In this document: positions 4,287 to 36,340 of the stretch, piece by piece
Position numbering within the stretch: the first letter of the stretch is position 1
Layout of the letters: every line of letters begins with the position of its first letter
Program-made: the position numbers and the translations under genes
The notes under the pieces: generated by a model
Told to the model about the DNA's origin: nothing
Database searches by the model: none
The model's input: only the letters and a program-made list of their open reading frames with translations
Source: a virus
Strand: one strand, 5' to 3'
Length of the DNA stretch: 36,340 nucleotides
Virus record (IMG/VR): IMGVR_UViG_3300022743_000001
Location: 1 to 36,340 of that record

Positions 4287-5222
4287 TCACAGTACGTCGC
4301 GCACGGCGGCCGAGGATTTTTCCTGCCGCGCAACCAGGCTGTACTCGACCAGCAGCTGTCGGCGGTCGCTGTCACCCGTCTTGGCGAGCGGCACGGTCTG
4401 CATCGGGCGCAGCGTGGCCAGGCTCCACATGTCGGTTTGCAGCGCAAACACGGTGCGGGCGCGCTGGAATCGGTTCGGCTTGGCGGTGATCGTGCCGAAG
4501 TCGCTGATGTAGACATCGACCGATGCCGTGACCTTCTTGTCTTCGCTCACGTCGTAGCGGGTCGAGCCGCCGGTGAAGGTCGAGAAGGTCTGCTTCTGGG
4601 TGCCGCCCATCATCAGCATGTCCACCTTGCCGCCCTGCGCCCACGCGAGCTGCAGCACGTTCTTGAGCTGCGTTTCGGTGAAGGCGCGGGCGGTGCCGTC
4701 CGTGGCGGCGGTGTTGGTCGTGATGTTCGGCGCCGCGCCGCCAACACCCAGATCGTTGTTCGTGGCGATCCAGCCTTCGAGGCCGCGCAGCTGGCGGGCA
4801 GTACCGGCCGCGCCCACGGCGTAGACCGTGTTCTGCGTCAGCGCCACTTCCATGTCGCGCTTCAGCTCCAGGCCCTTGAGGCTGACCTGGTAGGCCAGTT
4901 CATCGTCACGGCCTGCGGTGTTGACGGCCTGCGCAGTGCCGGACACCACCACGGTCTTGGAACTGATCTGCGTGTAGTTGCCGATGCGCGCGGTCGGCGT
5001 CGCGGCTGCGGCCGTGGCGTCGTCGCCTTCGATCTGGGCGTTGTTGGCCGCGGTGGCGAGGTCTTGGGTCTGCCACTCGTGGAACGTCGATGCCGCCTTG
5101 CTCTTGGCGATCGCCGACAGGAACGGGGTTTCCGTGGGCGCGATGCGGTAGATCACGTCCTCCAGGTCTTCGCGGATGCCCTTGGCTTGGTAGGTCTGGA
5201 GGGTGTTGGTCGGGGCTGCCAT
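4287..5222 (-). CDS. Major capsid protein, SU10 (DUF5309) type
   Basis: A 311-residue protein matching the SU10-type major head protein pattern, an HK97-fold family. Its N-terminus TNTLQTYQAKGIREDLEDVIY is followed by RIAPTETPFLSAIAKSKA and HEWQTQDLA. The central part has the GRDDELAYQVSLKGLELKRDMEVAL helix and the C-terminal part a strand-rich VYISDFGTITAKPNRF segment. AAGGAA lies 7 nt upstream of ATG 5222, one of the better ribosome-binding sites in the late operon. It directly follows the scaffold gene. About 415 copies per head would be expected only if T=7, which cannot be read from sequence. Confidence 0.9.
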   Translation of the reverse strand: MAAPTNTLQTYQAKGIREDLEDVIYRIAPTETPFLSAIAKSKAASTFHEWQTQDLATAANNAQIEGDDATAAAATPTARIGNYTQISSKTVVVSGTAQAVNTAGRDDELAYQVSLKGLELKRDMEVALTQNTVYAVGAAGTARQLRGLEGWIATNNDLGVGGAAPNITTNTAATDGTARAFTETQLKNVLQLAWAQGGKVDMLMMGGTQKQTFSTFTGGSTRYDVSEDKKVTASVDVYISDFGTITAKPNRFQRARTVFALQTDMWSLATLRPMQTVPLAKTGDSDRRQLLVEYSLVARQEKSSAAVRDVL

Positions 5223-5245: not shown

Positions 5246-6271
5246 TCACAGGAGGCCGCGCAGTGCTGCGGCGGCGTCGTTGATGGAGCCGGTGCGGCGC
5301 AGCGACTGCATCGCGCGCGTCCGGCCATCGGTGGATCCGGTTTCCGCGCTGCCCGGGCGCTCGGTGCGCACAGGTGGCAGGCCACGAAGCCGGCTGTTGA
5401 GGTCGTTCTGGGCTTTGGCGTTTGCCTCTTTCAGCGCCGCCAGTTCAGCGCGCACGCTGTCGAGCTGCGCCGCCTTGTGGGCCAGTGCCACGACTCGGGA
5501 ATCAGCGATCGACCCGATTTCCTCGTCGCGGAAGCCAAAGCTTGAAAGCGCCTTCTTGACGCCTTCCTTGCCGGCCTTGGCTTTCTCGGCGTCGGCCCAT
5601 TCGGGGATCGCCTTCACCAGCGCGGCGGATTCCGCCTCCAGGTGCGACCGATACCACTGCTCTTGCGCGGCCTGTTCCTGCCGCATCAGGTGGGCTTGCG
5701 CCGCCGTCGCTTGCTGGGCTTGCTGGAAGTGCTGCTGGTACTGGTGCTGCTGGCGCAGGTATTCAACCGGATCGCTGTTGAGCAACGACGGGTCAGGCTC
5801 GGGCGGCGCACTGGCCTGCAGTTGCCGGGCGAAGTGCTGCAGGGCCTGGGCGAGCTGGGCGCGCTCCTGGGCGGCTGCGCGGCCCTCGGACTCGGCCGCC
5901 TTGCGCACGGCGGCTGCTTCCTCGAATCGCTTCTGTACCGCTTCGTCCTTCTGCAGGCGCCGCGTCAGCTCGGAGTGCGTGAAAGTGCGCTCCTCTTCCT
6001 TGCCGTCAACCTTGAGCTTGAGCTTGTACTCGGGCTCGCCGTCTTCGGCCTTCGCGTCCGCTGGGGCGTCGTCGGCCGGCTTGGCACTGTCAGGGTGCGC
6101 GGTGTCGCGGTCCTGTGGCGTGCGGTCGGCTGGGGCGTCGTCTTCGCGGTCGCGGTCGCCCGTCATCTCGGCAAGCCGGGATGCCAGGGCATTGTCAAAG
6201 CTGGGCTCGGTCGCGGCCGGCAGTGGCGCCGGTCCGGACTCTGCTGCTGGTGCTGCGGCTTGATCGCTCAC
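5246..6271 (-). CDS. Capsid scaffolding protein
   Basis: A 341-residue, highly charged, helix-forming protein. The N-terminal 75 residues are low-complexity (Ala, Pro, Asp), followed by YKLKLKVDGKEEERTFTHSELTRRLQKDEAVQKRF, a motif typical of scaffold proteins beside SU10-type capsids. The middle is a long coiled-coil rich in Gln and Ala, and the C-terminus is basic (LRGLPPVRTERPG; TRAMQSLRRTGSINDAAAALRGLL), fit for capsid binding. ATG 6271 overlaps the preceding stop by 4 bp and the gene lies directly upstream of the major capsid gene, as usual. Confidence 0.87.
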   Translation of the reverse strand: MSDQAAAPAAESGPAPLPAATEPSFDNALASRLAEMTGDRDREDDAPADRTPQDRDTAHPDSAKPADDAPADAKAEDGEPEYKLKLKVDGKEEERTFTHSELTRRLQKDEAVQKRFEEAAAVRKAAESEGRAAAQERAQLAQALQHFARQLQASAPPEPDPSLLNSDPVEYLRQQHQYQQHFQQAQQATAAQAHLMRQEQAAQEQWYRSHLEAESAALVKAIPEWADAEKAKAGKEGVKKALSSFGFRDEEIGSIADSRVVALAHKAAQLDSVRAELAALKEANAKAQNDLNSRLRGLPPVRTERPGSAETGSTDGRTRAMQSLRRTGSINDAAAALRGLL

Positions 6272-6453
6272 AGGGAAAACTCCTGTCCATCGTGAGTCAC
6301 GTAGCGCGCCGCGCCGTCGGTGACAAGCGGGTGCGAACTGGCAAGCGGCATGGACTGCGCCACGGCGCCGGGGTAGCTGACGCGGTAGACGCGCAGATGC
6401 GGATCAGCCGTCTCCAGGGCCAGCAGGCGGGCGCGGATGCTGTCGTGCGTCAC
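6268..6453 (-). CDS. Small conserved protein between portal region and scaffold
   Basis: A 61-residue protein. GTG 6453 gives a GTGA overlap with the upstream stop and leaves THDSIRARLLALETADPHLRVYRVSYPGAVAQSMPL and a tail ending DGAARYVTHDGQEFSL. Alternative upstream starts would bury the start deep in the previous gene and add an Asp/Ala-rich stretch that looks like out-of-frame sequence. Function is unknown; it belongs to the head operon by position. Confidence 0.6.
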   Translation of the reverse strand: MTHDSIRARLLALETADPHLRVYRVSYPGAVAQSMPLASSHPLVTDGAARYVTHDGQEFSL

Positions 6454-6776
6454 TCCCACCGCCCCCGCATCCAGTCCGCCGCCTTCGCCAGCGTCGAGCG
6501 GTGCGTCTGCAGTTGCATCGAGGCCATCTGCCCGGTCTGCATCACCTGCGTCAGGTGCGTCTCGATCCGCTGCAGCAGGTTTTGCGCGAGCCATAGTTGT
6601 TCACGTCCTTGCGTGTCTCGGCCGGTGGTATCTCGCCACTCGGACATGAGTTGTTCGCGCAGGCCGTCAATGGCCTCGCGGTAGATCGGCGAATCGATGA
6701 CGATCCGGGCTTGTTGCCCTCGGTCGATCTCTCGAATCAGCTTGTGCTCGTCATCCATGCGCGGATACTGCGACAT
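6450..6776 (-). CDS. Helical head-operon protein, function unknown
   Basis: A 108-residue, mostly helical protein (SPIYREAIDGLREQLMSEWRDTT; REQLWLAQNLLQRIETHLTQVMQTGQMASMQL). This type of small protein is often found beside the scaffold gene in podoviruses. ATG 6776 is taken as start; ATG 6758 is an alternative, and the codons further upstream lie in an intergenic repeat. There is no strong ribosome-binding site. It is the first gene after the glycoside-hydrolase cassette. Confidence 0.65.
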   Translation of the reverse strand: MSQYPRMDDEHKLIREIDRGQQARIVIDSPIYREAIDGLREQLMSEWRDTTGRDTQGREQLWLAQNLLQRIETHLTQVMQTGQMASMQLQTHRSTLAKAADWMRGRWE

Positions 6777-6789
6777 TCCGCAGCGCGGA

Positions 6790-6811
6790 GCGGCAACAGC
6801 GGCAACAGCGG
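6790..6811. repeat. Tandem 9-bp motif GCGGCAACA (copy 1 of 3 sites)
   Basis: Two full units GCGGCAACA plus GCGG lie in the gap between the glycoside hydrolase stop (6833) and the next gene. Related 9-bp doublets occur at 10929-10946 and 26438-26455, all on the plus strand and all just after a gene end. Confidence 0.7.
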
Positions 6812-6832
6812 TCAATACTCACCGGCAGGGGA

Positions 6833-8005
6833 TCAGGTGAGCAGCACGCCCACTCCGTTGATCGTTCCTCCGAGCTGCCCGCCGAACGTGCTATTTTCGG
6901 TCCCCGTTGCAATGGTCCTAATCGTGTTCAGGCTCTGCATTGTGGCGCCCGCGAACTGCGCGTTCAGGGCGTTCAACTCGGCCTTCGTGCAGTAATTCTT
7001 GATGCGCATGTCGCCCTTGCCTGGATTATCCCACGCGTACATCACACACCGCTTGATGCCCTTAGCGAGACATACAGCCAGCGATTCGGTGACGGTGCGA
7101 ATGTTGGGCCGGGACCAACCCACTTCGGTGCACCAGATGTCCAGAGTGCGAAGCGGGGCGGGGCCGGCTGCAATTGCGGTTTTCACAGAATCGATACACC
7201 CGCGGCTAAACCGGAGGAAATTCGATTCCGCGTAGAAGTGATATCCCCAAATGTCAAAGTAGCCGCCAACACTGCCCGAATCGGCATAGGCTGCCGTCGC
7301 GTAGTTGCTCAGGCCAAGAGTGGCAGACACTCCACTGACAAATGTCCACGATGGGCTGATGACCTGCAGTGACGGGTTCAGTGCCTTGATTGTTTGGTAA
7401 ATCGTTTTTTGGTGGCTGACAAGCTGAGTCATTGTCCCGGCGAACGAGTTGACGACGTTGGGCTCGTTCCAGCCCTCGTAGTACATGATCTTCGTTCCGT
7501 AGCGGTTGTATAGAAATGTCAGCCAGTTTGCCAGATTAGTCATATTGGCCGGCGGCTCTTTCGTGTTGTTGCCTGCTGTGGCCCACGCCGGCGTCTCATA
7601 TACGGTGTAGATGATGTCCCGGCCTGCAGCATAAGCTGCGTTAACCCATGCATCGAGCTTCGCCAGCCTCGTTGCGTTGTAGACGCCCTGCGATGTTTCG
7701 ATTTCGTCCCACCGCACACCGGAATCGTGCAGCCGCATGATGCCGTAGTTGAGCCCTTCCGGCAGCTCGTCGGTAAAGCAATACCCCAGCGCCTTTGCGT
7801 GGATGCCAAGCGAGCCGCTGAAAATCGACTGGATTTTGCCAATAGGGTCAGCGGTGATAGCCGCAGGCAAAGTGGCAAGCGTCAGGTCCGACAATTCGAT
7901 GCCGGTCCAGGTTGTGCCGTTGTAGTACATCGAGATGAAGGCGTTGGCCGGGAACGGCGGCTCGCTGCGCGAATTGAAAGGATTGGTATAGGTGCCCTGT
8001 TGCAT
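6833..8005 (-). CDS. Glycoside hydrolase (clan GH-A TIM barrel, GH39/PslG-like), putative depolymerase
   Basis: A 390-residue protein with a (beta/alpha)8 glycoside hydrolase signature. The first 75 residues are a short N-terminal segment of virion-like composition. The barrel starts near YGIMRLHDSGVRWDEIE and contains TVYETPAWA, YYEGWNEPN (general acid Glu about residue 181) and DIWCTEVGWSRP (nucleophile Glu about residue 294). The spacing and motifs fit retaining GH-A enzymes such as GH39. It probably cleaves a host capsule or exopolysaccharide as part of the virion. The location between the portal and scaffold genes is odd for a receptor or depolymerase gene, and the DNA looks less GC-rich than its neighbours, suggesting acquisition. 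The substrate cannot be told from sequence. Confidence 0.82.
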   Translation of the reverse strand: MQQGTYTNPFNSRSEPPFPANAFISMYYNGTTWTGIELSDLTLATLPAAITADPIGKIQSIFSGSLGIHAKALGYCFTDELPEGLNYGIMRLHDSGVRWDEIETSQGVYNATRLAKLDAWVNAAYAAGRDIIYTVYETPAWATAGNNTKEPPANMTNLANWLTFLYNRYGTKIMYYEGWNEPNVVNSFAGTMTQLVSHQKTIYQTIKALNPSLQVISPSWTFVSGVSATLGLSNYATAAYADSGSVGGYFDIWGYHFYAESNFLRFSRGCIDSVKTAIAAGPAPLRTLDIWCTEVGWSRPNIRTVTESLAVCLAKGIKRCVMYAWDNPGKGDMRIKNYCTKAELNALNAQFAGATMQSLNTIRTIATGTENSTFGGQLGGTINGVGVLLT

Positions 8006-8006
8006 T

Positions 8007-8723
8007 TTATGCCCCGTTGATAACTTCGACCGATGCGCCCAGAAGGGTCACGCTGTTGCTGATGTTCAGCAGCTCGCCAGTGAACGACAGCTCCAAGTCG
8101 TTGTTGGCAAAATCAAACGTACTCAGCAGCGGAGTTGCGCCGCCAGTAAGGCCGATGCCGCTGCTCGAATAAGCCTGGCCGGAAACTTGGGCGTACAAGG
8201 AGCTCTGGAACTGAATCTCGGAAATTGCCGTGTACTGCTGGCTACTGGTCGATGCGTCAATTCTGTAGAAACGCACATCCCCGGGGTTTGCGTCGTGTTC
8301 GTTGAGCTGGATGCACAGTCGATTGGCGGTGCCGTTAGCGACAGACAGCCATGTGTGATGCACCAACAGCCGACAGTTTTTCGTCAGCCGGGCTCGCGGG
8401 ATGCGGATTTTCGCCAGCACGCGTTCGTACAGCACCCCCGTCACGCTGCATGGGGTTCCGATGCTGGTCTGATACCCTGACACCGATGCTTGGAAAGCGA
8501 CCTTTCCCTCGGCGCTCCCGGCGTCGTATGCCGCCTGCATGTTAGGCAACGTCACCGCGCTGCCAGACTCGCTGATGAACTTGAAAATTGTCACGTACCC
8601 GAGCAACTCGTCAGCAACATCGTTTTTCAGTTCGGCTTGCATCCCGGTGGTCCACGTCAGATCAGACCCGCCGAGGGTGTCATACCAAGGCGACCGCACG
8701 CCCGTGTACTCGATTGTCTTCAT
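8007..8723 (-). CDS. Beta-rich structural protein paired with glycoside hydrolase, function unknown
   Basis: A 238-residue protein that I do not recognise. It is rich in beta-forming segments and Ser/Thr (NCRLLVHHTWLSVANGTANRL; TFDFANNDLELSFTGELLNISNSVTLLGASVEV). ATG 8723 overlaps the portal stop by 4 bp and the gene is followed after one base by the hydrolase, so the two form a cassette. Its base composition, like that of the hydrolase, looks more AT-rich than the head genes. Possible roles are a capsid-surface or tail attachment protein, or a carbohydrate-binding partner of the hydrolase; none is proven. Confidence 0.7.
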   Translation of the reverse strand: MKTIEYTGVRSPWYDTLGGSDLTWTTGMQAELKNDVADELLGYVTIFKFISESGSAVTLPNMQAAYDAGSAEGKVAFQASVSGYQTSIGTPCSVTGVLYERVLAKIRIPRARLTKNCRLLVHHTWLSVANGTANRLCIQLNEHDANPGDVRFYRIDASTSSQQYTAISEIQFQSSLYAQVSGQAYSSSGIGLTGGATPLLSTFDFANNDLELSFTGELLNISNSVTLLGASVEVINGA

Positions 8724-10897
8724 ACCGATACTCCTTGCGGGCCGCCTTGGTCGGGGCCGCCAACCATCTGCTCGGATTGCGCGTAGAGCGCGCGGTAGGC
8801 GGCCAGTTCCTGGTCGGCGCCCATCTGTATCGCGGCCAGTTCACGCTTCAGTGCGATCTCCGCTTCCAGGCGTTCACGGGCCAGTGCAGCCTCCGCTTGC
8901 CACTTCTCGCGCTCCATCTGCAGGCGGGCTATGGCTTCCTGCTGGTCGGCCTGCATCTGCATCTGCTTGAGCTGCATCTCCGCCTGCGCGCGCTGCTGGT
9001 CGCCCTGGGCCTTGAGCATCTCGGGCGGAGGCGGTGCGGGAGGCTTGGGCGGCTGGCTGGCGGGGTCGGCGAAGAACATCTCGGGCTGTTTGAACCCGAG
9101 CGCCTCGGCAAGCTTGCTGGCGAGCTTGTAGAGGTTGTCTGGCTGCACCAGGCCCATTGGTAGCATCTGCATCTGCGTCTGTAGCAGCGCCATCAGGTGC
9201 TGCACTTGCTGGTCCTTGTTGCCAGTGCCGAGCCCGACATTGACCGAGAAATCGAACTGGTTGCGCCACTCGCGCGGGTCGAAGTTGACCCACTTGCCGT
9301 GCACATGAGCAACCGTGGCCTGGTCCTGGTGCTGGCTGACGAGGCGCAGGATGGCCTTGAACAGGTCTTGGAATCCTGTCTCAGCGAACACGCGCGCAAT
9401 CAGCTCCACGCGGCTGTCTGCCCGGTTGGTGATGATGTTCATCCCCGTGGCCGTGTCGTTCAGGCTGTCGGCGCTGGTTCCTTGGCTATACCGCGTAAAG
9501 CCGGTGCGATTCTCCTTCACGACCTCGGCGTACTCAAGCATTGCCTGGGCTGCGCCGAGGTCGGGCTTGCCCTCCATCAGCGGCCCGACCATTCCGGGAG
9601 CACGCACGCGGACAACGCCACCCGGGCGAGAGGTCATCAGGTCGTCAAGGTTGACCTGGCCGTCCACTGCGAACGTGCGCCCGTTGATCGACGTGTAGAG
9701 CCCGTCCAGACTGGCGCGCAACAGGCTTGTCTTGAGCCTCTGCGGCTCCACGGCCTGGTCTGCCGGGCACAGGCCGAAGAAGCGGTGTGGCAGCGGGATC
9801 GGGGTGATCGTGACGAACGGCACCGCGTCGCACTCGCGCTCTTCCAGGATCACGCCGCCGGCCCGGACGACCTTGATCAGTTCGGCGATCCCGTCCCCGT
9901 TGCGATCGCAGCGGATGTAGCACTCTGTTACCCAGACGCGGCGCTGACTGTCATCGGCCGAGGTGTCGCCGGCACCGAAGCTGTACGCTTGCTCATCGTC
10001 AAAGCTACGGCGCTCGATCCGCTCGGCGTTGAGCGCGCCCGCGGCGTCGCCGTCGCTGCCGATGTCGTCGACGTTCTTGTAGCCGGCCGAGCGCAGGTCG
10101 CTGATGCTGCGCTCCACCCGGTGGCCGACGAAAGCGGCATCATGAACGGTCTTGGCTTCGCGCGATATCAGGAATTCCTCGGGCGGCACAGCATCGATGC
10201 GCACCCGGTTCTTTGGCTGCGAGCGCGTCACCGTCACATCGTGCAGCATGGGCGGCTCAGGCGGCGGCATGGGTGCCTGTGGCGGCTGGCCGGGCATGGG
10301 CGGCTGCATCTGCTGCTGCGCGTGCGCCTGGGCCATTGCGGCGGCGGCCTGCTCGTCGATGCGCTCGGTGTGCTCGATGATCTCGACACCCTTGTCCTGC
10401 GCCAGGATCTGCATTTGCTCGGCGGTCAGGTCGCGGTATGACTCGCGCACGTCCTCGTCGTCAGCGTCCCAGGCGACCTTCAGGACGCCAACCTTCTCGA
10501 TCAAGGCATCTTTGAACCATGTGTAGATGAGCTGGAAGCCGGGGTTCTGCCGGTAGAACACATAGTTCGCGTAGTCGGTCGCCTGCCGCGCTGCTTGCTC
10601 ATCCTCCTGCCGGCGCGGGACGAACTCCACCACCTGATCCCCGGCTGTGAAAATCTTGAGCAGGCCCGGAAGCATCCACTCGACCGTGTCGGCCACGTCC
10701 GTGCTGACCACCTGAGAGCGCCCCTCGATCTGCGGCGGCGCAAGTTCGCCCTCAGCCTTGGCGAGGTAGAACGAGACGTTGCGCCGTCGAGCCTCCGACA
10801 GCTTGCCGCCCATATAGCCCATGGCGGCGCGGATGTGCTGGTCGGTGATCGCGATCAGCGCGTCATCGGTGATCGTTGGTGGTTTTGCGCGAGACAT
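8720..10897 (-). CDS. Portal protein, P22-like
   Basis: A 725-residue protein, the usual size of P22-type portals. Features include QVVSTDVADTVEWMLPGLLKIF and GDQVVEFVPRRQEDEQAARQATDYANYVFYRQNPGF near the N-terminus, then a proline-rich insert (PMPGQPPQAPMPPPEPPM). The core contains KNRVRIDAVPPEEFLISREAKT, VPFVTITPIPLPHRFFGLCPADQ and SADSLNDTATGMNIITNRA. The C-terminal 130 residues form a Gln/Ala/Glu-rich coiled coil, likely the barrel. It forms the dodecameric DNA entry ring. It follows the terminase gene after 50 bp that hold a 9-bp tandem motif and a short GC run. Confidence 0.9.
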   Translation of the reverse strand: MSRAKPPTITDDALIAITDQHIRAAMGYMGGKLSEARRRNVSFYLAKAEGELAPPQIEGRSQVVSTDVADTVEWMLPGLLKIFTAGDQVVEFVPRRQEDEQAARQATDYANYVFYRQNPGFQLIYTWFKDALIEKVGVLKVAWDADDEDVRESYRDLTAEQMQILAQDKGVEIIEHTERIDEQAAAAMAQAHAQQQMQPPMPGQPPQAPMPPPEPPMLHDVTVTRSQPKNRVRIDAVPPEEFLISREAKTVHDAAFVGHRVERSISDLRSAGYKNVDDIGSDGDAAGALNAERIERRSFDDEQAYSFGAGDTSADDSQRRVWVTECYIRCDRNGDGIAELIKVVRAGGVILEERECDAVPFVTITPIPLPHRFFGLCPADQAVEPQRLKTSLLRASLDGLYTSINGRTFAVDGQVNLDDLMTSRPGGVVRVRAPGMVGPLMEGKPDLGAAQAMLEYAEVVKENRTGFTRYSQGTSADSLNDTATGMNIITNRADSRVELIARVFAETGFQDLFKAILRLVSQHQDQATVAHVHGKWVNFDPREWRNQFDFSVNVGLGTGNKDQQVQHLMALLQTQMQMLPMGLVQPDNLYKLASKLAEALGFKQPEMFFADPASQPPKPPAPPPPEMLKAQGDQQRAQAEMQLKQMQMQADQQEAIARLQMEREKWQAEAALARERLEAEIALKRELAAIQMGADQELAAYRALYAQSEQMVGGPDQGGPQGVSV

Positions 10898-17959: not shown

Positions 17960-18192
17960 GACTTGCCCTCTCGCACCGTAGCGCACAGTTCGAAGTCCGC
18001 GCACCGCCGCTGATTCCTGATCCGCGCGTCGGCCACCAGCGCCGACAGCGGGCGGATCGACCCGCAACGGATGCAGGACATCGTGTTGCACAGGCCGGTG
18101 GACGCCGGGCGCGGGATGTAGGTCGCGCCGGTGGTGACCGTGGCCGACGAGCGGCCCGTGCCGGACGTGTGGGCGTGGTTGAGGTAGGTCAT
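17956..18192 (-). CDS. Small Cys-containing protein, possible zinc binding
   Basis: A 78-residue protein from ATG 18192 (ATGA overlap with the methyltransferase stop). It has a Thr/Ser-rich start and a CNTMSCIRCGSIRP cluster, followed by RRCADFELC, so two Cys pairs about 25 residues apart could form a zinc knuckle. Function unknown. Confidence 0.6.
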   Translation of the reverse strand: MTYLNHAHTSGTGRSSATVTTGATYIPRPASTGLCNTMSCIRCGSIRPLSALVADARIRNQRRCADFELCATVREGKS

Positions 18193-19109
18193 GCCTGCCT
18201 CCTGATTGCGTTGAGGATGTCGCGGGCAACGACCGGCACCACGGCGTTGCCGAGCATGTGGACAGCGGCCTTGTGGTTGGTGGGCAGCACGTAGTCGGAC
18301 GGGAATCCCATCGCGGCGCGGCACTCCTGAGCCGACAACATGCGCATCCGGTCGCCGTCGATCACTCCCCATCGGTCAACTGTCGTGATCGTGCCAAGCG
18401 GTCGAGACAGCGCCCGCCCTCCCCGCTCGCTGCCGTAGTACGCAGTCACGAAGCGCGCGCCATGGGCGGCCCGGCCAGCACGGACCCGGGCCAGCGTCGC
18501 TGGTGCCCGGCCCGGCTTGTCGATCTGCGACCACTTGCCGGCCTCGAAGTCGATCAGGCTCTCGCTGCCGACGTGCGCCAGGCTCGGCAGGTCCAGCATG
18601 AGCGGGCGAGCAGAGCGCGTGCAGACGATGAACAGGCGGGTCCGGTGCTGCGCCACGCCATGATCGGCAGCGTCGACGATGTGCGGCGCCAGCGTGTAGC
18701 CCAGCGCCTGCATTGCCATGCGCCATGCCGGGTAGAGCGACCACTCGGCGAACTCGGGGACGTTCTCGACGACGACCACCTCGGGCCGGTGGTACTCGGC
18801 GGCCGAGACAACGGCCCACGCTGTCGACCGGCTGGCGTCGTGCTGCGGGTTGCCGCTGGCCTTGCCGCGGGCCTTGCTGTGGCCCTGACAGCAGGGAGAC
18901 GCCAGCAGCACGTCATGGGCCGGAACCTTCGACCAGTCGGCCTGGTGCAGGTCCTGGCAGGCGTGCACGGCGCCAGGGTGGTTGCGGGCATGGATCTCGA
19001 CGGCGGCAGGCCAGTGGTTCGCGGCATAGACAGGGGTCATCCCAGCCATGCGCGCGCCGGTGGAAAATCCGCCGGCACCGGCGAAGAGGTCAGCGCAGGT
19101 GGTCATCAT
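18189..19109 (-). CDS. DNA (cytosine-5) methyltransferase
   Basis: A 306-residue C5 methyltransferase. Motif I (SAM binding) is CADLFAGAGGFSTG at the N-terminus. Motif IV with the catalytic Cys is LLASPCCQGHSKA, a variant of the usual PPCQ. Motif VI is VVVENVPEF, motif VIII QHRTRLF, and the target-recognition and motif IX-X region ends with AAVHMLGNAVVPVVARDILNAI. ATG 19109 is favoured by its overlap with the preceding stop. No restriction partner is next to it. It probably methylates phage DNA to evade host restriction; the target is unknown. Confidence 0.9.
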   Translation of the reverse strand: MMTTCADLFAGAGGFSTGARMAGMTPVYAANHWPAAVEIHARNHPGAVHACQDLHQADWSKVPAHDVLLASPCCQGHSKARGKASGNPQHDASRSTAWAVVSAAEYHRPEVVVVENVPEFAEWSLYPAWRMAMQALGYTLAPHIVDAADHGVAQHRTRLFIVCTRSARPLMLDLPSLAHVGSESLIDFEAGKWSQIDKPGRAPATLARVRAGRAAHGARFVTAYYGSERGGRALSRPLGTITTVDRWGVIDGDRMRMLSAQECRAAMGFPSDYVLPTNHKAAVHMLGNAVVPVVARDILNAIRRQA

Positions 19110-19366
19110 GCGCAAGTCCTCCACGGCAGCGGACGGACGCCGCGTTTCCCATGCTCGCGTTCGCCGATGCGAACCGGCGTGATGAGCCCGCGGGACTGCA
19201 GCGCGGGCACCTGGTTGTGCACCATTCGGATGTGCACAGGCTGGTCATCGCCATGGATCGCCAGCGCGACAGCCCGAACGGTGACGGGCTGCAGGCGCCG
19301 GAATGCGTCCAGCAGGCGCAGCTGCTTGGCCTTGAGCGACTGGATGGGGAGGTCGGCGCGGCTCAT
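19106..19366 (-). CDS. Small winged-helix-like protein
   Basis: An 86-residue protein from ATG 19366 (ATGA overlap). RADLPIQSLKAKQLRLLDAFRRLQPVTVRAVALAIHGD followed by IRMVHNQVPALQSRGLITPVRIGEREHG reads as a winged helix with a recognition helix and wing. It lies directly upstream of the methyltransferase and overlaps its start. It may regulate the operon. Confidence 0.65.
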   Translation of the reverse strand: MSRADLPIQSLKAKQLRLLDAFRRLQPVTVRAVALAIHGDDQPVHIRMVHNQVPALQSRGLITPVRIGEREHGKRGVRPLPWRTCA

Positions 19367-24622: not shown

Positions 24623-25345
24623 ATGGAGCAGATCAAGAGGTTCGAGTTCGTTCCTGGTGACGAGATCGTCATCGCGCCAGGCCGGACGGTGAAGCGCGTC
24701 CGGGCGCTGGTGGCAATTGCGGCGCTCGGCGTGTCGCCTGGTGATCTGGGCGGGTATGTCGAGAAGGAGGGCCAGGTCTACGGCGATGCCTGGGTCTCCG
24801 GCAATGCCCGGGTCTACGGCAATGCCCGGGTCTCCGGCGATGCCTGGGTCTCCGGCGATGCCTGGGTCTACGGCAATGCCTGGGTCTCCGGCGATGCCTG
24901 GGTCTACGGCAATGCCTGGGTCTCCGGCGATGCCTGGGTCTACGGCAATGCCCGGGTCTCCGGCGATGCCTGGGTCTACGGCAATGCCCGGGTCTCCGGC
25001 GATGCCCGGGTCTACGGCGATGCCTGGGTCTACGGCGATGCCCGGGTCTCCGGCAATGCCCGGGTCTACGGCGATGCCTGGGTCTACGGTTGCGGCCTGA
25101 TCTTCTGGGCATCCATCGTCGGCACCGAGAACGGCACGCTGACGGTCTACAACGGCAATGACAACACGCTGCTGGTGACGCGCGGCTGCTTCTGCGGGAC
25201 GGTGGACGAGTTCCTGGCGAGGTCGGCCGACAAGCACGACGAGCGCACGCGCACCGAGTACCGGCTGCTGATCGATGTGGCTCGTTCGCGGATCGAGCAT
25301 GCGCGCACCGTGACCGCTGTTCCGGCTGACGAGGTGGCGGCATGA
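24623..25345 (+). CDS. Hexapeptide-repeat (left-handed beta-helix-like) protein
   Basis: A 240-residue protein. Residues 1-50 are a globular start (EQIKRFEFVPGDEIVIAPG ... VSPGDLGGYVEKEG). Residues 52-153 are 17 perfect six-residue units V(Y/S)G(D/N)A(W/R), then a partial unit. The C-terminal 85 residues (GLIFWASIVGTENGTLTVYNG; LVTRGCFCGTVDEFLARSADKH) form a separate domain. The period fits a left-handed beta-helix as in hexapeptide transferases or bactofilin-like polymers, but no active site is visible. ATG 24623 has AAGGGG upstream. Similar repeat proteins occur in phages and gut bacteria with no known function. Confidence 0.8.
   Translation: MEQIKRFEFVPGDEIVIAPGRTVKRVRALVAIAALGVSPGDLGGYVEKEGQVYGDAWVSGNARVYGNARVSGDAWVSGDAWVYGNAWVSGDAWVYGNAWVSGDAWVYGNARVSGDAWVYGNARVSGDARVYGDAWVYGDARVSGNARVYGDAWVYGCGLIFWASIVGTENGTLTVYNGNDNTLLVTRGCFCGTVDEFLARSADKHDERTRTEYRLLIDVARSRIEHARTVTAVPADEVAA
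24776..25090 (+). repeat. 18-bp tandem repeat array coding for the beta-helix
   Basis: Seventeen 18-bp units GTC-T(A/C)C-GGC-(G/A)AT-GCC-(T/C)GG fill 24776-25081, followed by a partial unit. Only three bases vary, each with two states, giving Tyr/Ser, Asp/Asn and Trp/Arg. The unit lacks stop codons in several frames, which creates long spurious frames on both strands. Confidence 0.93.
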
Positions 25346-29984: not shown

Positions 29985-30461
29985 TCAAGCCCCGGCACCG
30001 CCCGGGGCAAGCAGCGCCGCCTCGGCTGCGCGCCGAAGCACGAGACCGGGCAGCACGCGACCGCCGCCGCGAACCCAGCGCCGCATTTCGGCCTGCGCGC
30101 CAGGCCAGTCGCCGGCATTGATCCGCCGCCGCAGCGCGGACGCTTGGAGCGCGTAGACGCCGAGGTTGAACGCGAACGACACCAGCGCAGCCACGCGCGG
30201 CGCAGTGTCTGCGCCGGGACACAGCCGCAGCACGGCGGGCACATACTCGCGGGCCGCCGAATCGCGCAGCAGCACCAGGGCCGCCTCCCGCGTGATTGGC
30301 GGATCAGTGAGTGCAACGCGGTGGCCGTCGAGGTAGCGGGTCGCGCCCGCACCGATCGTGGCAACACCAGCGGGGCATAGGTACGGCCGCAGGCGCAAGC
30401 CCTCAAACCGCAGGATCAGGGGTAGCGCCAGCCGGAGTACATCGTCAGCGGCCGGTCGCAT
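29985..30461 (-). CDS. Endolysin, GH24 lysozyme
   Basis: A 158-residue phage lysozyme. LPLILRFEGLRLRPYLCPAGVATIGAG gives the catalytic triad Glu20, Cys29 and Thr35 with T4-like spacing (9 and 15 residues from Glu); Cys replaces the usual Asp, a known functional variant. ALVSFAFNLGVYALQASALRRRINAG and MRRWVRGGGRVLPGLVLRRAAEAAL are the typical C-terminal lobe. ATG 30461 overlaps the holin gene by 17 bp. There is no signal or SAR helix, so release through the holin is expected. A GC hairpin (GCCCCGG/CCCGGGGC, 29989-30008) covers the gene end. Confidence 0.88.
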   Translation of the reverse strand: MRPAADDVLRLALPLILRFEGLRLRPYLCPAGVATIGAGATRYLDGHRVALTDPPITREAALVLLRDSAAREYVPAVLRLCPGADTAPRVAALVSFAFNLGVYALQASALRRRINAGDWPGAQAEMRRWVRGGGRVLPGLVLRRAAEAALLAPGGAGA

Positions 30462-30909
30462 GGATTCGGCCCCCGACGTACAGCCCCAGCGCACCGCAGA
30501 CAACCTCGCCCACCAGTCCGGTCAGCGCCACGTGAGCCGGGAACAGCGCGTTGCCCAGCAGCAGCAGGATGGAGGCAGAGGCGAGCGCCGGACGGATCGA
30601 TCCGTTCCAGGAATCGACCCACTGCACGCCGGACGGCCTGCCGACCGCCTCCACGCCGGCCAGCATCATCCGGTCCGCTGCATCGCTGGCGCTGGCCTCG
30701 CGCTGCGCCTCGACCAGTTTGACGCCTGCCGCCGCAGCATCGGCCACGGCCAGCCGCTGACGCTCTGCGCGCTCGCGCTCCAGATCAGCCTGCAGGCGCA
30801 GCATGTCGATCTCGGCCCGGCGATCCTCGCGGGCTTTGACGATGCCGAGCAGTTCGCCAAGCAGCCAGCGAAGGGAAGCCGAGCCGAGGAATGAGATGAG
30901 GGCGGTCAT
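30445..30909 (-). CDS. 3TM-type holin-like protein
   Basis: A 154-residue protein from ATG 30909 (ATGA overlap). After a hydrophobic start (TALISFLGSASLRWLLGELLGIV) comes a charged coiled coil (DMLRLQADLERERAERQRL). The C-terminal half is WVDSWNGSIRPALASASILLLLGNAL and VALTGLVGEVVCGALGLYVGGR, two membrane helices as in the GTA-type 3TM holins. It precedes the lysozyme gene. It probably forms the membrane lesion or helps the neighbouring small holin. Confidence 0.72.
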   Translation of the reverse strand: MTALISFLGSASLRWLLGELLGIVKAREDRRAEIDMLRLQADLERERAERQRLAVADAAAAGVKLVEAQREASASDAADRMMLAGVEAVGRPSGVQWVDSWNGSIRPALASASILLLLGNALFPAHVALTGLVGEVVCGALGLYVGGRIHATGR

Positions 30910-31130
30910 GCCAGATCCCCCGGCGAAGTGGTGGCCAGCGCATCCCGGCGCGCACGCCGCTTGCGCACGATCTTGTCCCGGACCAGCACGTAGAGCTGTG
31001 CCACCGTGTACACGATGGCCAACCATTTCCCGACCTCGTCCGGCTGCAGGTGCATCAGCCAGGCGATCGAGAGCCTCATCGCGGCCAGGAAGTTCTCTTT
31101 CACTTCGATGGGTGTGTGGCTCAGGCTCAT
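30906..31130 (-). CDS. Small holin-like membrane protein
   Basis: A 74-residue protein. A central transmembrane helix (VGKWLAIVYTVAQLYVLV) is preceded by an amphipathic part (ENFLAAMRLSIAWLMHLQPDE) and followed by a strongly basic tail (RDKIVRKRRARRD), the usual layout of small phage holins. ATG 31130 lies 6 bp after the ejection protein stop. No spanin gene was found nearby. Confidence 0.7.
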   Translation of the reverse strand: MSLSHTPIEVKENFLAAMRLSIAWLMHLQPDEVGKWLAIVYTVAQLYVLVRDKIVRKRRARRDALATTSPGDLA

Positions 31131-31136
31131 ATGTCT

Positions 31137-33539
31137 TCAGTCCAGCAGGCCGCGACGTGGGCCAGTCGTTGAGCGAGCATCGCCGCCTCCTGTGAGTAGC
31201 AGCGGCGCACCGCCGCTGGTGCCGCCCCCCCGTCGTGCCGGGGTGCCGATCAGCTGGCGGGCGTATTCGGGGTCAAGCAGAGCGCGCGACAGGCGATCAG
31301 TGATCTGTTCGTTCGCGCCGCCGTAGATCAGCCCCAACGGCTTGCGCATAATGCTGCTGACCATCGGGGATTCGCCAAGCTCGCCGAAGACGCGCTGCAG
31401 CAGCCACGACTGAGACAGGTTTTGCACGGTGTTGGAGCCGACGGATTTCCCCGCTTCCAGGCCGAGGCGTGCGGCGTTCGCATCGGCTGCGACTTCGCGC
31501 AGGCGCTGCAGCTGGTCTGGCGTCAGGACGCGCTTGAGGTCGTCCCCCTCGTTTTTGATGAGGTTGTTCAGCTTCGCCGCGCTGATGACTGGGGTCCCTT
31601 GCATGTCGGTCGTGCCAGTCTGCACCCGCTTCAGCGCATCCTGCAGCGCCTCCATCTGATTGACCGGGCCGGACTGGCGCGCAAACGTCGAGAGGTAGTC
31701 GCGCCATGGGTCAGCGGCCTTCCCAGCCGGCACTGGCCCGACTGCGCGCGCACTGGCGCCGCCTATCGCGTCGTCGAACATGGATTGCACGCCGTCGAGA
31801 ACGCCGCGGGCGTGTCGCAGGTTGCCGGCGTCGCCCTGCAACTTGCCCTGCATCGCCAGGCCAATGTCTTTGCGGATCTCGTACAGCGCCCGCGCGTCGA
31901 TGCCGCCCGCTTCGTCGGTGGACTGGAGCACCTGCTGGCGCACGCGGTCGAGGGCTTGGCGGTTGGTGCTGCCTGCGTTGCTCGGGTTGCGGATCAGGTC
32001 GTCAAGCTGACCGAGGATCTCGCGACCATCGATCTGGCCAGCGCGCTGCAACACGCCTTCACGCATCGGGGTGGTTGCGAGCCTGCGCGCATCCTTCGCA
32101 AGGTCGATGGCCGCTGGCGTGCCGGCCACCTGCTCAAGCGCTGCGGTGCGCGCCGCGTTCTGCGCAGTGCCGCGCATGGCGATCTCGTTGGCGGTCTGCG
32201 GGTTGACTGCTTGCATGGTGCGAGTCAGCCCGGCTAGGCCCACGTCGCCAGCCGCTGCAGATGTGAGGGGGACGGAGCCCTGAACTACCTGCCGGTACCG
32301 GGTCAGCGCCTCAGCGGCTGCAGCCGGGTCGTGGGCATAGCGCCGCAGGATGTCGCCGACGATGCGGTCCTGCCCCGCCCCAGTGAATGGCTTGACGATG
32401 CCAGTTGCCAGCGCCGCGGCTTTGCCGGCCGCGCCGAAGCCGACAGGGAGCATCCCGCCAAGGAATGCGGCTTGTGCTGCATCTTGATCGTCGCCGCCAG
32501 CCATGCCAGCCGCTGCCGCGCCAGCAGCGGCACCGCCGGCCGCACGCAGGCCGAGCCCAGAAATTCCGCCGACACTGCCGGATGACATGCCGCCGGTCTC
32601 GACCGACGCCAGCAGTGGCATGACGCGCGCCGCCAGCATCGGGGCGGCGGCGGCCATGCCGCGGGCCAGTCCGCCCCCGACGCCAAGCGTTCCCGCCAGC
32701 TCGCCGCCGACTTTCCCGACCGCGAATGAGTTGCTCCCGGTGTCTGCGCCCAGCGTTCCGAGCGCATCCGCCATGCCCTGCCGGCGGTCGCCACCGAACT
32801 CGAAGCCGACATCGGTGCCGGGGATCATCAGGTTCACCGGCTTGCGCGCCGCGTAGTCGAGGGGCGACAGCAGCGTGGCGCCGATCGACCCAGCACCGCG
32901 GATCGCACCGGCCGCCAGGTCGCCAGCCAGGCCGGCCAGGCTGCGGTCCGGCTTGGCGGCTGTCTGATCGGGCCTGTAGCCGGCAGCCGCGTATTCCTCC
33001 CACGGCATTTTCGCGGGCGATGTCTCGGCGGTGCCGCGGTTCGTCGCCCGGCCCTTTTCGGTGCCAACACGCCGCCCAGCTACGGACACCAGCTTGCGCA
33101 CGTAGTCGGGGTCCGTGGCATATCCGCCGGCCTTGAGGCCCTGGGCAAACTCCTCCACCGTGCGAGCCTGCGCCGCCTGCGGGTACCGGCTGCGGATCAG
33201 CGCGGCGTAGTCCTGGGCGGCCCGCTCGGGGTCGGAGTAGCTCCGGAACTTGGACGGCTCACGGTAGGTACCCCCGCTCTTGTCGTACTCCAGGGCGTTG
33301 ACGCTGGCCGTGTCGCCCTGCCACTTGCTGCCGGCTTTGATGTTGCCGTAGTTGTAGGCGCCGACCGTCTTGGAGGCATCAGCCCCGGTTTCGAGCGCGG
33401 TGTGCGCCAGGATGGCTGCTTCCGGAATGCCTGTTGCTGCGCTGGCCGCCGCCGCGAACTGAGCGCGTGCCGCCTTCGGATCCGCCTTTGCCGGCTTGTT
33501 GCCGTATCCAGCCGCGGCGTACTCTTCCCACGGCATCAT
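31137..33539 (-). CDS. Large ejection-type virion protein with N-terminal glucosaminidase domain
   Basis: An 800-residue protein from ATG 33539 (ATGA overlap). It opens with MPWEEYAAAGY. Residues about 20-165 resemble a FlgJ-like (GH73) peptidoglycan hydrolase: PEAAILAHTALETGAD with the likely catalytic Glu, then AYNYGNIKAGSKW and FRSYSDPERAAQDYAALI. At residue 178 the MPWEEYAAAGY motif recurs. A Gly/Ala-rich, amphipathic middle (about 200-370) is followed by a long helical C-terminus. It is probably a virion protein ejected to breach the cell wall. It ends the tail block before lysis. Confidence 0.82.
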   Translation of the reverse strand: MMPWEEYAAAGYGNKPAKADPKAARAQFAAAASAATGIPEAAILAHTALETGADASKTVGAYNYGNIKAGSKWQGDTASVNALEYDKSGGTYREPSKFRSYSDPERAAQDYAALIRSRYPQAAQARTVEEFAQGLKAGGYATDPDYVRKLVSVAGRRVGTEKGRATNRGTAETSPAKMPWEEYAAAGYRPDQTAAKPDRSLAGLAGDLAAGAIRGAGSIGATLLSPLDYAARKPVNLMIPGTDVGFEFGGDRRQGMADALGTLGADTGSNSFAVGKVGGELAGTLGVGGGLARGMAAAAPMLAARVMPLLASVETGGMSSGSVGGISGLGLRAAGGAAAGAAAAGMAGGDDQDAAQAAFLGGMLPVGFGAAGKAAALATGIVKPFTGAGQDRIVGDILRRYAHDPAAAAEALTRYRQVVQGSVPLTSAAAGDVGLAGLTRTMQAVNPQTANEIAMRGTAQNAARTAALEQVAGTPAAIDLAKDARRLATTPMREGVLQRAGQIDGREILGQLDDLIRNPSNAGSTNRQALDRVRQQVLQSTDEAGGIDARALYEIRKDIGLAMQGKLQGDAGNLRHARGVLDGVQSMFDDAIGGASARAVGPVPAGKAADPWRDYLSTFARQSGPVNQMEALQDALKRVQTGTTDMQGTPVISAAKLNNLIKNEGDDLKRVLTPDQLQRLREVAADANAARLGLEAGKSVGSNTVQNLSQSWLLQRVFGELGESPMVSSIMRKPLGLIYGGANEQITDRLSRALLDPEYARQLIGTPARRGGGTSGGAPLLLTGGGDARSTTGPRRGLLD

Positions 33540-34789
33540 CGCACCGGCTCCCAAGAGTTCGGATCAGCAGGGCTACCCCCGGGCTTGAGTCGGTAGCCAT
33601 TACGCACCATGCCGGGCATCGGCGTGGGGACGCGAGCGGACGGCGCATCCTGCTGCCCCGCATACCGCTGCTGGATTTCGCGCACGGTCTGCAGCGCGGC
33701 GAGGCGGGTCTGAATCGGCTTCGAGGCATCGCCGACAGCGCCGGCCATATCGCGATAGAGCTGCACATCCTTGTCAGACTGCGGGCCGGACATCTTGGGC
33801 ATCTTGGCGGTGAGCATGCCGCCGATGGCCTGCAACTGCGCTGACGCCTGCGCGCCCTGGGTGGAGCGCCCGAAGAACGCCGCGCCGCTGTCGATCAGGC
33901 TGCCCGCACCGGAGCCGGTGGCGCCGCCAGTTTTCAGGATGGCCTCGGCTTGATCCGCCAGCGCGAGCGCCTCCTTTGCGTCCTTCGAACCGCCAGTGCC
34001 GGCCGACACGGGGCGCGGTGTGATCTGGCCGCCCGGCCCCATCTGCTTCGGTAGTGCAACAAGCTGACCGGTTGCGGGGTCGGTCTGGTACGTCACTTCG
34101 CCGGCACCCTGCAGCATGTTGAAGTCCTGCCCGCGCCGGGTAGTTTCGGCCGCCAGGATGGCGTCGGGGCTGTTGGTCTTGGGTGCGGAGAAGATCGGCC
34201 GGCCGGTGGCGGGGTCAAACAACACCTGCCCCTCGCTGACCGCCATTGGCTTCTGACCAGCCGAGAAGATCGGGCGACCGGTGCGCGGGTCAACCAGCGT
34301 CTGCCCCTCGCTGACCGTGACCGGCGCGGCCTGCTGCTTGGCGATCAACTGCTGGAACGCCACGCCGGCCTGTGGGTCTACGCCCATCAACGCGCGCCCG
34401 TAGCCCTCGGCGTCAAACTGAGGCGTCATGCCTTCCAGGCGCTGCGCGTTGCCGACAGTCGGTCCGCCGCCGCCCGCGAGCGCCTGCTGGGCGGGCGAGC
34501 GGTAGAACTGGTCCGGGAGGGCATCAAGGCGCTGTTGTCGCGCCGCGCCGCGCTGGGCTTGCTGGAGCTGCAGTTCCTGCATCTGGCGCAGCGTCTTCTG
34601 CGACTGCTCGGCCTTCTGCTTGTCGAGCGCATCCTGGTAGCCACCGAGGCCGGCCAGCCCGCCGCGCCCGAGCTGCTGTGCGAAGCTGCCGCCCCCGGCC
34701 AGCATGTTCAAGCCCATAGCGAGCAGCCCCTGCCGCACCGCGCTCTTGCGGTCGTCCGGCATGGTGTCGAATTCGTCGAGTAGTCCCAT
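33536..34789 (-). CDS. Putative internal virion / ejection protein
   Basis: A 417-residue protein from ATG 34789 (TGATG overlap). The N-terminus GLLDEFDTMPDDRKSAVRQGLLAMGLNMLAGGGSF and LGGYQDALDKQKAEQSQ is common to a group of podovirus internal or tail proteins. Two similar segments, VSEGQTLVDPRTGRPIFSAG and VSEGQVLFDPATGRPIFSA, form an internal duplication. The C-terminal half is helical with ALADQAEAILKTGG and ends in a proline/glycine tail. A role in the ejection apparatus is inferred from position. Confidence 0.7.
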   Translation of the reverse strand: MGLLDEFDTMPDDRKSAVRQGLLAMGLNMLAGGGSFAQQLGRGGLAGLGGYQDALDKQKAEQSQKTLRQMQELQLQQAQRGAARQQRLDALPDQFYRSPAQQALAGGGGPTVGNAQRLEGMTPQFDAEGYGRALMGVDPQAGVAFQQLIAKQQAAPVTVSEGQTLVDPRTGRPIFSAGQKPMAVSEGQVLFDPATGRPIFSAPKTNSPDAILAAETTRRGQDFNMLQGAGEVTYQTDPATGQLVALPKQMGPGGQITPRPVSAGTGGSKDAKEALALADQAEAILKTGGATGSGAGSLIDSGAAFFGRSTQGAQASAQLQAIGGMLTAKMPKMSGPQSDKDVQLYRDMAGAVGDASKPIQTRLAALQTVREIQQRYAGQQDAPSARVPTPMPGMVRNGYRLKPGGSPADPNSWEPVR

Positions 34790-35784
34790 CAGAGCAGCCC
34801 CTTTTTCGTGCCGCGGCCCAGCTTGTTCAGTTGGGCCAGCTTGTCATACCCGATCACGCGCGCGGCCTCGGCCGAAATCACGAACTCCCCCGTCTTCAAG
34901 GCGCCATAGCCCTCATCGGGGCCGGCCGGGTCTGGGCCGTGCAGCCGGTCGGCAGTGACAACGCCGCCGCGCGCCCATCCGTCGCCCCCACTTTCTCCGC
35001 CGCCGTCGCCAGCCCCGTCGCCAGACCCGCCATCTCCGGACGATTCGCCTTCGATCCCGCCGCCATCGCCAAACCCGCCGAAACCCCCGCCGAAGCCGGA
35101 GTCCAGCCCCCCGCCGAAGCCCTCGCCGATGCCGACCCCCAGCCCGCCGAAGCCCTCGACGCCCGACAGCCCTGCCGCAGACAGCCCTCCATCGTCGGCC
35201 CCCATGCCGAAGCCGGCGTCCAAGCCGTTGACGGCGTTGACGCTGCTGGGGTTGGTCTGGTCCGACGAGACGGCGAGCCCCAGCAGCCCGCCCAGCGCCG
35301 CGCCGATTGGACCGCCGAGGCTGAATCCGGATTGCGCACCATTGCCGATGCCCGTGATACCGAGCGCATTGCCGATCTGAGACCCGATCGACTCGCCTGA
35401 CCCAACTGCGCCGCCGAACCCGCCGCCGATGGACTCGGAAGGCCCTGCGCCGCCGTCCGCCGAATCGCCGTGCTCCTGGGTCGCGCTGGCAGCCGCCGCC
35501 GCGCGGGCCGCCTCTTCGGCTTGCGCGGCCGATGCTGCCTGAGCCTGCGCGCGGTACTGTGCCAGGCTGTCGGCCAGCGACCGCATGGCCGGCGGTGCGT
35601 ACTGCTGCATGGGGGGCTGCGCCACGCCCATGACCGGCGTCATGGCGGCGCCGGATTGCTGCCCGATCCCTCCGGGCCGCATGCTGGTGTACCGATTGAG
35701 GCCGGAGCCAGCCTGCAGCCCGGCCGGCGACCACGGGGCCGCGTCGAGCAAGCCGGGCCGGTTGAGGTAGTTGTTCAGTGCCAT
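34789..35784 (-). CDS. Gly-rich virion protein with conserved TGEFVISAEAAR tail
   Basis: A 331-residue protein. ATG 35784 (ALNNYLNRPGLLDAAPW) lies two bases after the preceding stop; a longer frame to 35883 lies inside the upstream gene and is rejected. Residues 60-125 are Gln/Ala-rich, residues 130-300 nearly all Gly with Asp/Ser (GGGFGGFGDGGGIEGESSGD). The C-terminus GALKTGEFVISAEAARVIGYDKLAQLNKLG is a motif shared by many phage tail and internal proteins. A structural role is likely. Confidence 0.72.
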   Translation of the reverse strand: MALNNYLNRPGLLDAAPWSPAGLQAGSGLNRYTSMRPGGIGQQSGAAMTPVMGVAQPPMQQYAPPAMRSLADSLAQYRAQAQAASAAQAEEAARAAAAASATQEHGDSADGGAGPSESIGGGFGGAVGSGESIGSQIGNALGITGIGNGAQSGFSLGGPIGAALGGLLGLAVSSDQTNPSSVNAVNGLDAGFGMGADDGGLSAAGLSGVEGFGGLGVGIGEGFGGGLDSGFGGGFGGFGDGGGIEGESSGDGGSGDGAGDGGGESGGDGWARGGVVTADRLHGPDPAGPDEGYGALKTGEFVISAEAARVIGYDKLAQLNKLGRGTKKGLL

Positions 35785-35786
35785 GG

Positions 35787-36340
35787 TTACCCCAAGAGCC
35801 CGGCGAGCCCGCCGAGCGCGGCGCCCCACGGGCTGCCCGTTGCGCCGTAGCCGGCCAGCGCGCCGCCCGCGGCATTGCCCCACGTCGAACCGCCGCCTTG
35901 GCTCTGCGTGCTGGTGTTCGTCTGCCCGTAGTTCATGCCCAGCGCCTGCCCGAGGATGCCGAGCTGCTGCTGCGGGTACTGCTGCGCCGCCTGCCAGTTG
36001 CCGTAGTTGGCGTTCAATCCGGCTTGCTGCTGGTTCTGGAGCGCGTTCCCAACGTTCATGACCTGTGAGGCGTCGGTGTAGTCCTGTGCGGCGTACTGCG
36101 GGGCCATCGACAGCGCCTGCATCTGGTTCGCCTGCTGGGACTGGAACATCTGGTTCTGAGCCTGCGCCTGAGCTTGCCCCCCGGTAAAGAGCTGGTTTTG
36201 GTACTGCGATCCCGCGTTGTACTGGTTCTGCGCCTGCTGCTGACCTGCGCCATAGAGGTTCTGCGCCTGCTGCTGACCTGCGGCGTATTGCTGGGACTGG
36301 ATCTGCGCACCGCCGAGGTACAGGTTCTGGGCTTGCTGCG
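35787..36340 (-). CDS. Gln/Asn/Ala-rich virion protein, C-terminal part (starts at 1147)
   Basis: This is the remaining part of the 528-residue virion protein whose start is at 1147; the frame enters through the terminal repeat. The first part here is the 11-residue repeat array (LYGAGQQQAQN twice, then QYNAGSQYQNQ). Next comes MFQSQQANQMQALSMAPQYAAQ, and the end is a Gly-rich hydrophobic tail GSTWGNAAGGALAGYG and GAALGGLAGLLG. Such a tail is common in podovirus proteins that move from virion to membrane. The TAA at 35787-35789 is two bases before the next start. Confidence 0.8.
   Translation of the reverse strand, partial: QQAQNLYLGGAQIQSQQYAAGQQQAQNLYGAGQQQAQNQYNAGSQYQNQLFTGGQAQAQAQNQMFQSQQANQMQALSMAPQYAAQDYTDASQVMNVGNALQNQQQAGLNANYGNWQAAQQYPQQQLGILGQALGMNYGQTNTSTQSQGGGSTWGNAAGGALAGYGATGSPWGAALGGLAGLLG
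36227..36340. repeat. Terminal direct repeat, right copy (circular overlap)
   Basis: Identical to bases 1-114; see that entry. The array of 33-bp coding units within it (11 residues each) means the circle was closed inside a repeat, so the number of units could be wrong by one or more. Confidence 0.93.

Follow-up and report, generated by a model that had tools for sequence, protein, structure and literature searches.

An exchangeable slot after the portal gene of SU10-type phages and a predicted polysaccharide-cutting gene pair that occupies it

Here, we describe a two-gene module in IMGVR_UViG_3300022743_000001, a virus contig of 36,340 nucleotides that was analysed over its full length (hereafter, the window). 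The contig ends overlap exactly by 114 bp (1-114 = 36227-36340) and a 533-aa repetitive ORF spans their junction, so the 36,226-base genome appears complete and circularly assembled. Because its portal, major capsid and adaptor (PF24175) proteins match the Pfam SU10 families, we classify the virus as an SU10-type short-tailed phage. It carries antirepressor-type genes (Bro-N/ANT and KilA-N) and may be temperate. The virion genes of this seemingly complete genome, including the stretches 1-1600 and 29985-36340, contain no long gene that we could recognise as encoding a tail fibre or tailspike. Outside the virion genes, a 240-aa ORF (24623-25345) contains 17.5 copies of an 18-bp repeat that encodes a YdcK-type beta-solenoid (PF18836, 2e-29). 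The window also holds a C-5 cytosine DNA methylase (18189-19124; PF00145, 2e-42).

The module consists of a predicted glycoside hydrolase and a beta-rich partner, both on the minus strand and both at the coordinates given by a first-pass annotation made from the sequence alone (Table 1). That annotation placed the pair between the portal and scaffold genes. The pair does follow the portal gene; on its other side, a small conserved gene comes first and precedes the scaffold gene together with a further small ORF. This small conserved gene, which we call the border gene, likely starts at an ATG near 6758. The start codon of the beta gene overlaps the portal stop, no sigma-70-like promoter was found in the 4-13 kb region, and neither N-terminus of the pair has an evident signal peptide (judged by eye). 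Taken together, these features suggest that the enzyme would reach its substrate either on the virion or at lysis.

Table 1. The gene pair, its neighbours in the window, and slot proteins of related loci.
Feature	Position in window, or loci	Strand	Evidence
Clan GH-A glycoside hydrolase (predicted), 390 aa	6833..8005	-	PF00150, 2e-9; catalytic Glu E181 and E294
Beta-rich partner, 238 aa; proposed spike base/anchor	8007..8723	-	Weak model; N-/C-terminal divergence from the L002 copy
SU10-type portal protein; left slot border	8720..10897	-	PF23899, 2e-218
Conserved small protein (border gene) following the portal; right slot border	6450..6815	-	Family in 95 loci of the first set, where 107 loci have a portal
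Further small ORF, flanked by border and scaffold genes	6268..6594	-	Present in L003, 83% identity
Head scaffolding protein	5246..6271	-	phrog_3927, 1.4e-41
Major capsid protein, SU10 type	4287..5222	-	PF17236, 2e-100
Slot proteins with a shared C-terminal domain	L007, L013, L017, L034, L038, L041, L060, L072, L123, L126, L141, L161		

Sequence evidence supports the 390-aa protein as a clan GH-A enzyme, probably a barrel, that is predicted to cut polysaccharides. It matches the Pfam Cellulase/GH5 family at 37.8 bits (cut-off 23.5) and carries paired glutamate motifs, WNEPN (E181) and CTEVGW (E294), so that both an acid/base Glu in an NE motif and, close to where the domain ends at its C-terminal side, a nucleophile Glu are present. 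In the alignment, three other proteins keep both residues, namely the copy from phage L002 (see below), gp072 of Caulobacter phage Cr30 and the spirochaete homologue L029; the homologue L030 is truncated ahead of both positions. The GH-A type assignment of the first-pass annotation thus holds; its narrower "GH39/PslG-like" label fares less well, since the GH39 model (PF01229) is not reached (12.7 bits against a cut-off of 26) and the GH5 model is. Matches in the PDB are to GH39 beta-xylosidases. An AlphaFold model of low confidence (pLDDT 40, from a two-sequence alignment) alternates helices and strands, and its best Foldseek matches are GH5 and PslG at a TM of only about 0.38, a hint that agrees with the sequence evidence. 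A beta-helix tailspike depolymerase, with which the annotation had contrasted the hydrolase, was rejected given the GH-A family match, the lack of any tailspike family match and the alternating helices and strands of the weak model. Identity to PslG is about 18%, and the phage hydrolase lacks an additional N-terminal region seen in its bacterial homologues L029 and L030.

The 238-aa partner matches no family in Pfam, PHROGs or NCBIfam and has no sequence match in the PDB. Its weak AlphaFold model (pLDDT 38), likewise from a two-sequence alignment, places helices at the N-terminus and seven strands within residues 99-236, and the earlier description of a beta-rich protein of no known family can be retained. 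Two sequences are too few for good models, and pLDDT is near 40 for both proteins. Searches with the partner model by Foldseek (PDB and BFVD) returned only weak beta-sandwich, lectin and tail-protein resemblances, which we do not count as evidence for its fold. More informative is the comparison with the L002 copy, in which 27 of the first 90 alignment columns are identical (about 30%) against 111 of the last 151 (about 73%). An N-terminal part that adapts to different capsids would be expected to diverge faster in this way.

That the hydrolase and beta genes are an acquired foreign module is well supported by sequence comparisons: their codon usage is foreign, the same pair occurs in an unrelated phage, and relatives have either nothing or different genes at this place. 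A GC profile bore out the lower GC content that the annotation had noted, with the pair forming the lowest-GC 1890-bp stretch of the window (56.9% against a mean of 66.1%). The GC3 values are 0.73 and 0.72 (0.76-0.90 in other head and tail genes), and the codon log-odds are 0.09 and 0.08 (0.28-0.47 in the other genes tested), making the codon usage of the pair the least like that of those genes. Low GC is not a general sign of cargo at this site, since the GC content of other cargo mostly differs only slightly, upwards or downwards. The pair is neither present in all relatives nor of normal composition, and the first-pass reading of an acquired module is upheld. A scan of bacterial species-representative genomes returned only distant relatives of the hydrolase, in two Spirochaetes genomes (26-27%), and plasmid matches are likewise distant; recent capture from a sequenced host species was rejected on these grounds.

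In searches of viral contigs, only L002, an unrelated HK97-type phage, was found to carry the pair besides the window. There it lies in the same order and with the same 1-bp gap, flanked on one side by an HK97-type capsid gene (PF05065, 2e-51) and on the other by head-tail connector genes, again with low GC3 (0.74 and 0.72 against 0.88-0.96). Both copies thus keep a composition unlike that of their present genomes. Synonymous sites are saturated between the two hydrolase copies, which indicates that they parted long ago, and a dN of about 0.17 with saturated dS points to strong constraint on the enzyme. The closest relative of the window, L003, has a portal 93% identical to that of the window and lacks both genes. 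Overlapping its portal stop (4947-4961), it has ATGAAGACGATC followed by TAG, which resembles codons 1-4 of the window's beta gene, ATGAAGACAATC. By our own count, agreement of at least 8 of the 9 bases after the ATG at a given position has a chance of about 1 in 10,000. The L003 stretch is therefore probably a beta-gene remnant, with the pair present in the common ancestor and lost in L003, and we reject insertion of the pair into an empty L003-like site.

The site after the portal gene varies well beyond these genomes. We compared 135 distinct portals (the first set and two larger scans), and in 114 of these the border gene is the next conserved gene. The portal adjoins it in 77 of the 114, in keeping with the annotation's statement that the block is usually continuous, and more than 100 bp separate the two in 37, with inserts of 0.1-4.6 kb; this 37 is an upper figure because a few gaps (L082, L088, L156) hold no clear ORF. 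Cargo genes mostly start at the portal stop. Three states are seen among loci with similar portals: no insert in L003, the pair in the window, and a G8-domain protein directly after the portal in L004 (a truncated contig). In L004 (293-3870), the portal is 91% identical to that of the window and TerL only 33%, which marks a recombination border between TerL and portal.

Other cargo includes a GDSL hydrolase (an esterase; L118, 9.5e-9), an F5/8C lectin domain (L116), an esterase-like alpha/beta-hydrolase that matches phrog_10356, "virion structural protein" (L021, 7e-20), a head-spike-fibre domain (L038; NF048003, 9e-13) with a 58% identical homologue in L072, and a glycine-rich protein (L041). 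Additional slot proteins match phrog_3758 (virion structural protein) and phrog_5939 (tail protein), and some resemble tail fibres. The L021 and L118 proteins share an N-terminal domain (43% over 69 aa) and differ in their enzyme domains, which reads as a direct sign of enzymes being swapped on one anchor. Most of the longer multi-gene inserts include a protein whose C-terminal domain is conserved (...DEEDVELLLL..) and whose N-terminal part varies and is often repetitive (Table 1); this C-terminal domain is absent from the window. On these comparisons, we regard the site between the portal and the border gene as a general accessory swap slot and not a one-off insertion. No description of the slot was found in the titles and abstracts of the literature searched, of which a few papers were covered in full.

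The pair and the slot resemble known systems in parts. The RcGTA head spike consists of a beta-fold base (Rcc01079), attached to the capsid by its N-terminus, and a fibre (Rcc01080), and binds host polysaccharide (PMC7296036). It shares with our pair the proposed two-part design: a candidate base gene adjoins an enzyme gene with a 1-bp gap in both the window and L002. The NCBIfam head-spike-fibre domain that corresponds to RcGTA is also encoded at this slot in L038, with the homologue in L072. It differs in that the RcGTA fibre binds, whereas the second protein of our pair is a predicted glycoside hydrolase, and neither RcGTA protein showed sequence homology to the pair. The capsid turret of HFTV1 likewise combines two head proteins, a base (TBP gp30) and a protein (THP gp31) that carries a carbohydrate-binding module and a domain predicted to be a glycan deacetylase/hydrolase (PMC12494034). 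Here the likeness is that of a base, the role proposed for our beta protein, joined with an enzyme-domain protein; HFTV1 is an archaeal virus, and its deacetylase-like domain contrasts with the GH-A barrel predicted here.

In Gordonia phage Ranch, a small protein and a GDSL esterase (gp4-gp5) directly follow the portal gene. The enzyme class and phage type are different, and N-terminal homology of our beta protein to gp4 was rejected (hhalign probability about 1%), leaving no detectable homology between the two. Caulobacter phage Cr30 has a beta-rich gene followed by a related glycoside hydrolase of similar length (gp071-gp072), with gp072 28% identical to our hydrolase over 54% of the query (hhalign 98%); these genes do not lie in the head block, and gp071 was dismissed as a homologue of the beta protein since no homology was found. 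The C-terminal part of gp071 is homologous to a slot protein in L007 (2e-15). With PslG and clan GH-A (GH5, GH39) our hydrolase shares both catalytic Glu motifs. Sequence similarity of the beta protein to known base proteins was not found.

What, then, might the pair do? On balance, we lean towards the view that the two genes encode a single virion-borne, two-part enzyme spike, most likely mounted on the head. We infer a base role for the beta protein, in which the fast-diverging N-terminal part would contact the particle and the conserved C-terminal beta domain would carry or orient the hydrolase. The GH-A enzyme would cut host exopolysaccharide, capsule or biofilm glycan, the substrates we infer for it, by a two-glutamate retaining mechanism, and thereby clear a path for adsorption. 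The module would occupy the accessory slot where SU10-type phages exchange surface adhesins and enzymes. Mounting on the head is plausible because of the L038 head-spike-fibre domain and its L072 homologue at the slot and because the L002 pair lies behind the major capsid gene; it fits both gene contexts as well as the RcGTA head spikes and HFTV1 turrets. Where a gene lies is, however, no proof of where its product sits in the particle, and other slot proteins resemble tail fibres.

Mounting on the tail, with the pair acting as a tailspike substitute on the adaptor or nozzle and merely encoded in the head block, seems to us unlikely. It would agree with the usual location of depolymerases on tails, and with the LUZ24-like phage Lyrsu01, where a GDSL lipase and a particle-associated lyase are encoded between the adaptor and the tail genes that follow. 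Matches to tail or tail-fibre families are seen for several slot proteins, and a genome in which no long tail-fibre gene is recognised would need a tail adhesin. However, L003 lacks the pair and yet has the adjacent head and tail genes in common with the window as far as 1159-1596, the pair in L002 lies close behind the capsid gene, and the slot of L038 holds a head-spike-fibre domain.

An enzyme that stays outside the virion is less probable still: it would be made late, freed at lysis and thin the polysaccharide around cells, helping progeny to spread. The late-operon position, the lack of an evident signal peptide and the failure of Pfam, PHROGs and NCBIfam to recognise a virion-anchoring domain are in keeping with such a soluble enzyme. 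What speaks against it is that the enzyme keeps the same partner, the two ends of which differ in evolutionary rate, that slot proteins of relatives match virion structural families, and that the pair lies in the head block of two unrelated phages. Very improbable, in our view, is a moron, a passenger gene by which a lysogen alters its own exopolysaccharide. The foreign composition and the antirepressor-type genes of a possibly temperate phage would suit this role; against it stand the head-operon strand, the coupling of the beta gene to the portal by the start/stop overlap, and the lack of both a recognisable sigma-70-like promoter nearby and an evident signal peptide.

The exchangeable slot after the portal gene is the larger finding, and this general swap slot, together with the probable loss of the pair in the closest relative, goes beyond the reading of the first-pass annotation. 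Extending the head-mounted spike that we prefer for the window, we tentatively suggest that SU10-type phages may keep a post-portal slot for head-mounted spikes, namely adhesins and glycan-active enzymes (GH-A, GDSL, alpha/beta hydrolase) with matching anchors, and that the capsid too may carry polysaccharide-degrading enzymes. The search for phage depolymerases usually centres on tail genes. If a swap slot in the head block houses enzymes and proteins of lectin type, it would represent a source of polysaccharide-degrading enzymes that has been overlooked, and some of the variation seen between SU10-type phages would be accounted for. The idea that enzymes are mounted on capsids could then also be tested in phages whose bacterial hosts are in culture. 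For the virus described here, the pair is predicted to be of help, probably by easing its way through the slime around its host.
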